Shown here piece after piece: positions 61,491 through 63,529 of a stretch of 64,000 nucleotides of DNA (position 1 is its first letter; each line of letters opens with the position of its first letter). The stretch is from Anaerobacillus sp. CMMVII. GTDB taxonomy: Bacteria; Bacillota; Bacilli; Bacillales; Anaerobacillaceae. The notes beneath the pieces are model-generated. The model worked only from the letters and a program-made list of their open reading frames with translations, searched no databases and had not been told where the DNA came from. Position numbers and translations under genes: made by a program. Location of the stretch: positions 550,885 to 614,884 of the forward strand of contig NZ_JACEHK010000001.1 of the NCBI RefSeq assembly GCF_025377685.1. Direction: 5' to 3'.

Positions 61491-62203
61491 ATGGATCACT
61501 CAAGGCCTCTAGTTCAATGGTTTTCATTAACTTTTGATCTCTCTATTATCCTCACTACTACAGTAGCTTCTCTTCTAGTTTTTTTCTTTGTTTATTTCAT
61601 CACTAGAAATATTACCTCAGAGGTTCCTGAAACCAGACAAAACCTAATGGAATGGATTGTTGAATTTGTTCAAAACATCATGAGAAACACAATTGGTTCA
61701 ACAAAAAATTTATTTACTCTCTCTTGTGGAATTGTTCTCTTATTATATGTTTTTACTGCAAATATTTTAGGTCTTCCTTTTACAGTAATTGTAGGGGAAG
61801 AACATGTTTTGTGGTGGAAGTCCCCAACAGCAGATGCCCACGTAACGATCACTTTAGCTATTATGATGGTTGTTTACTCTCACTTTAATGATCTTCGAAC
61901 TTTCGGTCTAAAACACTATCTCATGGGCTACATCAAACCATTCAAAGCTCTTTTCTTAACAAATCTAATGGAGCAGTTTAGCAATACTGTAACGTTAGGC
62001 CTGCGGCTTTTTGGAAATATTTACGCAAAGGAAATCATGTTATTAATGTTGGTAGGTTCGATAAAAAAGGCTTTTTTATTGGCTTACTCGCAGCAGCTCC
62101 ACTGTTACTTTGGATGGGTTTTGGTTTATTTGTTGGTGCAATTCAAGCCTATATCTTTGTTACGCTAACAATGGTTTATGTTTCATTACGAGTCCATCAT
62201 TAA
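61491..62203 (+). pseudogene. atpB-like: Orphan ATP synthase a-subunit-like protein, one frameshift
   Basis: Joined product about 237 residues, homologous to Bacillus F0 subunit a: [51 protein letters not shown], and the essential arginine in [18 protein letters not shown]. The last helix reads [20 protein letters not shown] after adding one T in the T6 run near 62075. The IKPF lysine lies where alkaliphilic Bacillus a-subunits have their special lysine. AtpE (c) does not follow. The start follows AGGAAGGGGTGGAAGAATT. Membrane protein; proton half-channel in the canonical enzyme. Confidence 0.8.
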
Positions 62204-62221
62204 ATGAGGAGGAGATTTGTT

Positions 62222-62590
62222 ATGGGCGATATTACGATATTTGGAATGCCAGTTTCGTTAGGGACAATGATCTATCAAGCGGTTGTTTTTACTGCTCTTT
62301 TTTGGATATTACACAAGCTATGTCTAAAAAAAGTCGTCGGTGCTCTAGAAAGGAGAAAAGATCATATCGCAAACCAACTGAAAATGACAGAACAGTATAA
62401 GGAAGAAGCCAGACAAAAATTAACAGAGCAGGAGCGATTGTTACTAGAAACAAGACAAGAAATAGTGAAGATGCGATTAAACTGCAAAGAAGAGAGCGAA
62501 TTAATCTTAAGAAATGCTAGGGATGAAGCTTATAAAATCCGTACAAAAGCCTATGAGGAACAACAGAAACGATTTAGGCAGGGGGCTTAA
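62222..62590 (+). CDS. atpF-like: Short ATP synthase b-subunit-like protein
   Basis: 122 residues: one N-terminal membrane helix (SLGTMIYQAVVFTALFWILH) followed by the charged helix LKKVVGALERRKDHIANQLK that is typical of F0 b. A standard b subunit has about 160 residues, so the C-terminal delta-binding part is missing. It starts 18 bp behind the a-like gene (TGAGGAGGAGATTTGTT), and the next gene follows within six bases. No c gene lies between a and b, unlike every normal atp operon. Confidence 0.8.
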   Translation: MGDITIFGMPVSLGTMIYQAVVFTALFWILHKLCLKKVVGALERRKDHIANQLKMTEQYKEEARQKLTEQERLLLETRQEIVKMRLNCKEESELILRNARDEAYKIRTKAYEEQQKRFRQGA

Positions 62591-62595
62591 ATCAC

Positions 62596-63045
62596 ATGAA
62601 AAAGACGATTGTTAAACAACATGAAGATATGTTAGAAAAGATGGAAATTATCAACGAGGATAGATGGATCTATGTTCATTATTGGAGAGGAAATCATGAA
62701 AAAACAGCCATATTCTTAAAAGATACAGATAAGTCTATTGATCATTACTTCCAGGAGTTCTATAGCGAAAATGCGGTGACATTCCAAATGATATGTGAAG
62801 TAAATAAGTTTATCAGAAAACAAAAAGACGACTTGGAATATGTCCTCAAAGTTTCATCATTACACTTGAGTCTTGGCATTATGTTTGCCCTTGCTTGCTT
62901 GGCTGGATTTAAATTAGGATCTAAACTAGATGTGATTTATGGCATCTATCCATTATTTACACTCATCGGCTTATTTATTGGGATTGGTTTCGCAGGTTTT
63001 TCTGGTTATAAAATGATCCAGAAATTTCTCAAACCTGATATGTAG
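62596..63045 (+). CDS. AtpZ/AtpI-like two-helix membrane protein with an extra N-terminal domain
   Basis: 150 residues. The C-terminal 60 residues are two helices with small-residue motifs: GIMFALACLAGFKLGSKLDV, GIYPLFTLIGLFIGIGFAGF, like AtpZ/AtpI, which help assemble the c-ring or carry magnesium. The N-terminal 90 residues are soluble and acidic (EIINEDRWIYVHYWRGNHEK). I do not recognise that part. Ribosome site AGGCAGGGGG; coupled to the b-like gene. Confidence 0.55.
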   Translation: MKKTIVKQHEDMLEKMEIINEDRWIYVHYWRGNHEKTAIFLKDTDKSIDHYFQEFYSENAVTFQMICEVNKFIRKQKDDLEYVLKVSSLHLSLGIMFALACLAGFKLGSKLDVIYGIYPLFTLIGLFIGIGFAGFSGYKMIQKFLKPDM

Positions 63046-63076
63046 TCGTTAAAAACATGAAGGGAGGGATTGTTTC

Positions 63077-63529
63077 ATGTTTATGTTTAGAAAAAGAAAA
63101 GCTAAAAAGCAATATCCTTCAGTTGATGTTTCCATTCATGAAGTGCGAAAGGCGGTTATGACGTTTTCTGATCGTCTCGCAAAAGGAGTTTTTACGACAA
63201 TTCTAATAAAAGATGATAATAGTCTTGATTATGAACAACTTGCACCTATTTTAGGTGGTATTCCATCAAAAACGTATTATATGTCAAAAGAAACATTTGA
63301 TATTTTTGAAGAAGAAGAAAAAGAAATTCCTAGAATAATAGATAAGGTTCAAAGAGCGGTCGACGCTTTTGTCAAGGAGTTCAAAACCCCACCCTTAATA
63401 AAATATGATCCATATTTTCGTGTGAATTACTATCTCTTAATGCAAGAAGGCTTTCTAGATTTTCGTCCAGAAATTTCGTTATATATACATGAAGATGGTA
63501 TGGTAACACACAAGAAACCCGATAAATGA
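63077..63529 (+). CDS. DUF3939-like protein
   Basis: 150 residues, soluble. MFMFRKRKAKKQYPSVDVSI, VFTTILIKDDNSLDYEQLAP, ILGGIPSKTYYMSKETFDIF and a terminal VTHKKP. This matches the DUF3939 pattern (QYP-VDVS--EV--A, ILGGIP-K-YYMSKET). The function of that family is unknown. Start behind AGGGAGGGATTGTTTC. It is the last gene of the a-b-AtpZ-like unit; no F1 or c genes follow in the remaining 470 bp. Confidence 0.65.
   Translation: MFMFRKRKAKKQYPSVDVSIHEVRKAVMTFSDRLAKGVFTTILIKDDNSLDYEQLAPILGGIPSKTYYMSKETFDIFEEEEKEIPRIIDKVQRAVDAFVKEFKTPPLIKYDPYFRVNYYLLMQEGFLDFRPEISLYIHEDGMVTHKKPDK

Follow-up and report, generated by a model that had tools for sequence, protein, structure and literature searches.

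A set of Fo a and short b genes with AtpZ-like and DUF3939 partners in Anaerobacillus and Neobacillus, a possible alternative stator without F1

In rotary ATPases, Fo and F1 are viewed as parts of a single machine, and the C-terminal end of subunit b binds delta and holds F1. According to excerpts of Beven et al. 2012 (PMC3369863), the F1-like/X0 clusters of Mycoplasma encode one half of a rotary ATPase in a separate cluster beside the normal one. The present report concerns a set of genes in Anaerobacillus sp. CMMVII that likewise encodes one half, in the form of a-like, short b-like, AtpZ-like and DUF3939 proteins; in contrast to the F1-like genes without Fo of Mycoplasma, these are Fo stator genes without F1. 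The set is located in a stretch of 64,000 nucleotides (contig NZ_JACEHK010000001.1, positions 550,885 to 614,884), which is called the window below. As the c and F1 genes that define an ATP synthase are absent, the set does not encode such an enzyme. It is tentatively read as a redox-controlled alternative stator that would act on the housekeeping c-ring, would be unable to hold F1, and would let protons flow uncoupled from ATP.

The a protein of the set, termed orphan a here, aligns nearly over its full length with subunit a of the F1Fo of Bacillus PS3 (PDB 6n2y, 6n2d), with E values of 2.4e-69 for a Neobacillus copy and 4.9e-61 for the copy of A. arseniciselenatis, and it has the essential arginine and most of the half-channel residues. 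The short b of one Neobacillus copy matches residues 6 to 117 of PS3 b. Unlike the PS3 enzyme, the set has no c, delta, alpha, gamma, beta or epsilon, its b is about 50 residues shorter, and orphan a forms its own clade with Glu159 replaced by Gln and Ser210 by Cys or Gly. A second a and b gene set is also found with the N-ATPases (alternate F1F0; TIGR03306, TIGR03321), but the present set contains no c or F1 genes and scores far under the cut-offs of these models. An identity as N-ATPase was rejected at 55.2 of the required 302.1 for altF1_A and 38.3 of 224.7 for the alternate b, with c and F1 genes of its own missing. The AtpZ-like protein shares with AtpZ (PF09527) of alkaliphile atp operons a two-helix hairpin that scores above the Pfam cut-off; it differs in having an extra N-terminal domain, in being fused to DUF3939 in Neobacillus, and in its position after b instead of before a. 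The match to DUF3939 (PF13075) in the set is full-length, whereas elsewhere DUF3939 has no a or b at its side or follows a different two-helix segment. No description of the set was found among the titles and opening lines of abstracts listed by full-text literature searches, which missed most subscription papers; the initial annotation of this DNA had known of none either.

The elements of the set in the window are as follows.

61351..61368, plus strand: Rex/Fnr-like inverted repeat TAGTGAAATAGTTCACAG, agreeing with the Rex consensus at 12 of 14 positions, 140 base pairs (bp) upstream of the a start
61491..62062, plus strand: a-like gene, N-terminal 190 residues (first part), read in the frame of the family, with the essential Arg followed by Lys-Glu
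62063..62069, plus strand: heptamer A_AAA_AAG, in phase, at the point where the a frame changes
62063..62203, plus strand: a-like gene, C-terminal 46 residues (last part), shifted to the -1 frame with respect to the first part
62222..62590, plus strand: short b-like gene, 122 amino acids, the C-terminal 50 or so residues of a normal b missing
62596..63045, plus strand: AtpZ-like gene, 149 amino acids, an N-terminal domain of about 85 amino acids without Pfam match and an AtpZ-type two-helix hairpin
63077..63529, plus strand: DUF3939 gene, 150 amino acids, PF13075

In the window, the a-like, short b-like, AtpZ-like and DUF3939 genes stand in tandem at 61491 to 63529. The gaps are small: a and b are separated by 18 bp, b and the AtpZ-like gene by 5 bp, and the AtpZ-like and DUF3939 genes by 31 bp. 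All four proteins matched their Pfam families above the curated cut-offs (PF00119, 5.1e-32; PF00430, 1.2e-8; PF09527, 9.6e-8; PF13075, 1.9e-50). The four tightly spaced genes of the initial annotation were thus recovered, and the proteins belong to the families named. In the a-like protein the PF00119 match is accompanied by the essential Arg and the half-channel residues, with Glu159 and Ser210 changed, and in the b-like protein the PF00430 match comes with the membrane helix, while the part of b that binds F1 is absent. The AtpZ-like protein of the window scored 32.4 bits and three Neobacillus fusion proteins that were scanned scored 33.7, 29.7 and 27.0 bits against a PF09527 cut-off of 26.6 bits; the DUF3939 protein of the window scored 171 bits against a cut-off of 21.3. 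With the nearest NCBI equivalog model, NF004479 (cut-off 268 bits), only the split a gene was scanned, the first piece scoring 201.6 and the tail piece 51.6.

The search for c and F1 genes was done with 12 tblastn queries (c, delta, alpha, gamma, beta and epsilon, taken from the main atp operons of this genome and Neobacillus OS1-33) at an E value of 0.01. Neither a c nor an F1 match was obtained anywhere in the 64-kb window, which upholds the earlier statement that no c gene lies between a and b and no F1 gene follows. None of the six subunits was matched in 24 set-bearing stretches, 404 kb in total, a sum that counts the entire window as well as stretches of one locus that overlap, and both main operons were recovered as positive control. 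The occurrence of the set beside c or F1 genes in relatives, which would have contradicted the view of an orphan set, was therefore not observed. A complete main atp operon, for which a check had been proposed, is present on contig 17 of this genome (4.87 Mb, 21 contigs) and comprises the genes for AtpZ, AtpI, a, c, b (163 amino acids), delta, alpha, gamma, beta and epsilon. Gene names follow order and sequence; those of a, b, c and AtpZ additionally rest on family searches. This operon contains the sole c gene found in the genome. Among 21 genomes examined, a c gene was found once in 19, adjoining main a, and was not found in the incomplete genomes of A. arseniciselenatis and of one Anaerobacillus metagenome-assembled genome (MAG). 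In the former, F1 alpha, F1 beta and a further family match located about 20 kb from them in relatives were missing as well, and the MAG gave no match at all, a pattern suggestive of assembly gaps. The genome-wide counts of F1 alpha and beta cover eight genomes. Both main operons that were read, those of this genome and of Neobacillus OS1-33, carry AtpZ and AtpI genes of their own, as judged by position and sequence and, for AtpZ of this genome, by Pfam.

The distribution of the set was determined with a named scan using an AtpZ-like profile on one genome per species (84,980 species). It yielded 16 loci, from A. arseniciselenatis, the Anaerobacillus MAG and 14 genomes referred to here as Neobacillus, a name that includes Bacillus sp. 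records grouping with this genus in the tree of a proteins. Together with the window, the set is present in 17 genomes of two genera, three Anaerobacillus and 14 Neobacillus. The number of 16 loci is a lower bound, since the scan patterns would miss the second, diverged sets (type II) that occur in three Neobacillus genomes, two of these sets being whole (L155, L156). The third (L157:5263-6916), the second set of Neobacillus muris, has open a and b genes and a fusion gene shrunk to a short remnant. The order a, short b, AtpZ-like was the same in all 16 loci, the MAG locus beginning inside a. In the 14 Neobacillus loci the AtpZ-like and DUF3939 parts form one protein of 319 to 324 amino acids, while they are separate genes in Anaerobacillus. 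The question of whether the four genes always travel together, which the initial annotation had raised, is thus answered in part: the set recurs in 17 genomes, but two of its genes are fused in Neobacillus and DUF3939 is found independently elsewhere. At an E value of 1e-8 the AtpZ-like profile matched 4 of 397 genomes of the order, all at full length. In a sample of the class 46 of 398 genomes matched, only the window's at full length, the other 45 matching the hairpin only, from model position 75 or later. Of the seven Anaerobacillus genomes, four that are 90 to 100% complete have main a only. In the family of Neobacillus jeddahensis (193 genomes), the species' own genus group comprises 61 genomes, 30 of which had at least two a matches. 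Two further genera of this family, g261 and g262, had two to four a-like matches in 5 of 5 and 6 of 8 genomes. All these a matches were counted by hand, and fragments or weak matches may be included.

The short b was 131 amino acids long in all 14 Neobacillus type I loci and 122 in the three Anaerobacillus, while two type II sets have one of 124. Alongside a single full-length b gene, one or two short ones were present in every one of the 14 Neobacillus genomes. As the alignment of the one Neobacillus copy ends at residue 117 of PS3 b (8 to 119 in another entry) out of 167 to 169, about 50 C-terminal residues are missing. The part that binds delta and F1 was accordingly not found in this alignment, as had been claimed from the window alone.

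When 60 a proteins were placed in a tree, all 20 orphans fell on one side of a long branch with a support of 100/100, so the a-like protein does form its own branch, a point that had been left to be checked. After main a of Anaerobacillus and proteins of Paenibacillaceae had been added, the eight orphans used stayed together (100/99); their position next to the main a sampled from the order had a support of 91/90 and carries a long-branch warning. Among 46 main a, ninety columns showed a conservation of 95% or more; in 51 of these the same consensus residue was present in all three orphan groups, in 39 it was not. All 20 orphans keep Glu158, Thr165, Arg169, Asn173, Glu178, Gln217 and Tyr228 (PS3 numbers), and the roles of a residues in the proton path of PS3 are dealt with in the available part of PMC6377231. 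The orphans also have Asp at position 16 (20 of 20), where 41 of 46 main a have Asn, and Ile or Val at position 19.

A lysine of the alkaliphile type had been noted in the window a and is indeed present. According to passages of PMC4453477, K180 of Bacillus pseudofirmus a matters for growth and ATP synthesis at pH 10.5. At this site all three Anaerobacillus orphans and all five Anaerobacillus main a have lysine, and all 17 Neobacillus orphans and 14 Neobacillus main a have glycine. The residue thus tracks the host and is not a mark of the set, since it is the same in orphan and main a although these are distant clades. This pattern would be expected if orphan a conducted protons from the same outside medium; it represents one convergence, not many.

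The genes of the set look like working genes. In 12 Neobacillus species the median ratio of nonsynonymous to synonymous substitution rates (dN/dS) was 0.084 for orphan a (45 pairs), 0.135 for short b (51 pairs) and 0.098 for the fusion (46 pairs), compared with 0.070 for main a of 14 genomes (54 pairs); saturated pairs were dropped. Between A. arseniciselenatis and the MAG the ratio was 0.046 to 0.061 across the four genes. With these low ratios and the kept residues, a decayed copy without conserved residues, which would have spoken against the initial annotation, was not encountered, even though the window's own a is frameshifted.

The a gene of the window is not intact. The family frame is lost after about residue 190, and the open frame continues to 62168 in unrelated sequence. 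The last 46 residues, corresponding to PF00119 positions 181 to 217, lie in the other frame at 62063 to 62203, and the two frames meet at the in-phase A_AAA_AAG. A -1 slip at this heptamer would join both parts; a recent lesion or an assembly error would be the alternatives. The two congeners (L109, L110) have the same gene in a single frame, one of them ending at a contig edge. Compared with A. arseniciselenatis, both parts of the window gene are constrained (tail, dN/dS 0.09; first part, dN 0.13 with dS saturated). The initial annotation was right about an a subunit with the essential arginine, as the PF00119 match also indicates, but needs the correction that the gene is frameshifted at 62063 to 62069 in this genome.

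Upstream of orphan a, a conserved block was recognised by eye in the 14 Neobacillus type I loci (L111 to L124), in a region that is otherwise poorly alignable. It consists, in this order, of a box like ATTCAGAAAATT, of TTGTGAACTATNTTACAA, whose right half can serve as -35, of 17 bp (e.g. in L116) and of a TATAAT-like -10. A box similar to ATTCAGAAAATT was also seen by eye ahead of two type II sets (L156, L157). In the available part of PMC2883068 the Rex operator consensus is TTGTGAAW4TTCACAA. The operator-like TTGTGAACTATNTTACAA agreed with it at 10 to 12 of 14 positions in all 14 loci. The pattern TTGTGAAN4TTNACAA with at most one mismatch occurred nine times in the 214,324 bases of these loci (both strands), in each case just upstream of orphan a, in nine of the 14. 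In the window and in A. arseniciselenatis matches at 12 of 14 Rex positions were present at -140 and -162, respectively. Taken alone, the window gives weak evidence, with four matches at up to two mismatches against 0.73 expected and two of 100 shuffles reaching four; the conserved block in Neobacillus lends this site support. The site upstream of orphan a is regarded as a putative redox-type operator, probably for Rex.

The AtpZ-like and DUF3939 proteins can be argued to act together, since they are fused in both Neobacillus set types and separate in Anaerobacillus. A structure model of the fusion (mean predicted local distance difference test, pLDDT, 73.6; predicted template modelling score, pTM, 0.43) shows a four-stranded sheet with two helices, then a hairpin with a long first helix, and then the DUF3939 domain, which has the best local confidence. 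DUF3939 is more widespread than the set, being present in 87 of 299 genomes of the order. In 17 of 18 DUF3939 loci that were read there was no a or b gene within about 1.5 kb, the 18th being the set of N. jeddahensis; DUF3939 is thus independent of the set. Several of the loci read contain near DUF3939 a gene which is presumably comK-like, as judged by eye. No literature on DUF3939 was found by full-text search. In Bacillus pseudofirmus, passages of PMC4453477 link AtpZ to magnesium uptake and AtpI to assembly.

Some further DUF3939 genes were seen apart from the set. In genus g62 of the Neobacillus family (L036, L037, L038, L039, L041, L044, L046), DUF3939 is fused behind a two-helix membrane segment, and no a or b genes are close by. 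In three of these proteins that were scanned, the segment did not score as AtpZ; the fusion may be another way in which DUF3939 is tethered to the membrane. Outside the set, a further DUF3939 gene is present in the window's genome, and the congener G002 has a copy that is 78% identical to that of the window and stands without an a, b or AtpZ-like gene (L107:6803-7246 and L108:8270-8722).

From these results a model can be proposed in which the set forms an alternative Fo stator; it is the likeliest of the readings considered, though at somewhat less than even odds. Orphan a, with its nearly complete proton-path residues, and a dimer of b would dock on the resident c-ring, the only one of the cell and the product of the main atp operon. 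Such docking is considered probable, and once it had taken place proton flow would be probable in turn. Since b stops short of the segment to which delta and F1 are held, ATP synthesis could not be driven by a ring on which the orphan stator is engaged, and proton flow would rotate such a ring freely. Placed on the stator, the AtpZ-like hairpin and its pair of soluble domains (N-terminal domain and DUF3939) may act as its gate. If expression is controlled by redox state, protons would be given a regulated path at high NADH or low oxygen, which would serve as a valve for the proton-motive force, this purpose being a guess.

A number of observations weigh against this alternative stator. Glu159 (Glu196 of E. 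coli) is Gln in 19 of 20 orphans, compared with Glu or Asp in all 46 main a; at position 210, Cys (17) or Gly (3) stands in place of the Ser present in 44 of 46 main a; and seven of the 20 orphans have lost His231. Because of these changes proton flow may be slow or absent. According to excerpts of PMC6377231, however, E. coli mutants at the position equivalent to Glu159 rank Glu > Asp > Gln, so Gln probably weakens function but does not abolish it. An ungated Fo would be harmful, and the gate is putative only. At the operator-like site 7 to 9 of 10 positions agree with the Fnr consensus; an Fnr site therefore fits about equally well, and the Rex reading is not secured. The Rex score was attained by 0 to 4% of shuffled sequences, with L115 as an exception at 27%, and type II loci agreed at 8, 11 and 11 of 14 positions with other letters. 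Fold comparison of the fusion model gave nothing above the level of common arrangements, DUF3939 being hardly probed. To these points are added the frameshift of a in this genome, the fusion gene of L157 reduced to a remnant, and the patchy presence in three of seven genomes of the genus.

The main competing explanation, which appears unlikely, is an inhibitory or storage stator. The set would capture and lock c-rings without useful proton flow, ATP hydrolysis by F1 would be stopped when respiration stops, and DUF3939 or the N-terminal domain would be the plug. The clade-wide changes of Glu159 to Gln and Ser210 to Cys or Gly, the redox operator-like site and a b unable to hold F1 would all agree with this. 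However, the lysine shared with the host in alkaline hosts and the full conservation of Arg169, Asn173, Glu178 and Gln217 suggest that the proton path is in use. A more far-reaching form of the alternative stator, in which the housekeeping c-ring would be driven under reducing conditions by the F1-free stator and AtpZ-DUF3939 would be the output or brake, so that a rotary proton motor would serve work or control other than ATP synthesis, must be called quite unlikely. It is improbable, too, that an a/b/AtpZ complex aids Fo assembly or magnesium uptake in the manner of AtpI and AtpZ of B. pseudofirmus. The AtpZ hairpin (PF09527) is present, and the links of AtpZ with magnesium uptake and of AtpI with assembly in passages of PMC4453477 would fit, but the main operons read have their own AtpZ and AtpI, and a conserved proton path with Arg169 would be unnecessary in such a role.

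A stand-alone ion channel, or an energised motor that consists of a and b and works independently of a c-ring, is very improbable. Although the set lacks a c gene, the residues kept are, according to excerpts of PMC6377231, those that serve a c-ring, and a main c gene was found in all but two of the genomes, which are incomplete. The view that the set is merely a decaying duplicate of Fo genes has the least credit of all. It could draw on the frameshifted a of the window, the remnant in L157 and the patchy distribution in the genus, but the other copies read have open frames, the dN/dS medians of 0.08 to 0.14 over 12 species disfavour it, and b length, residues and promoter region are conserved. 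Even the two parts of the window a are still under constraint, including the tail (dN/dS 0.09).

If the alternative stator exists, there would be a second Fo stator without its own rotor and unable to hold F1. This would imply that different machines can share c-rings, and the set would offer a genetically simple system for studying uncoupled Fo, gating, and the functions of AtpZ and DUF3939. The lysine common to orphan a and main a of the host makes the proton-path claim directly testable by point mutation.

Upstream of the set, at 56635 to 60090 of the window, a protein of 1151 amino acids is encoded that, by eye, has two very similar N-terminal repeats and an apparent xylanase-type domain. 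Its C-terminal end, which follows proline-rich repeats, appears anchor-like by eye.

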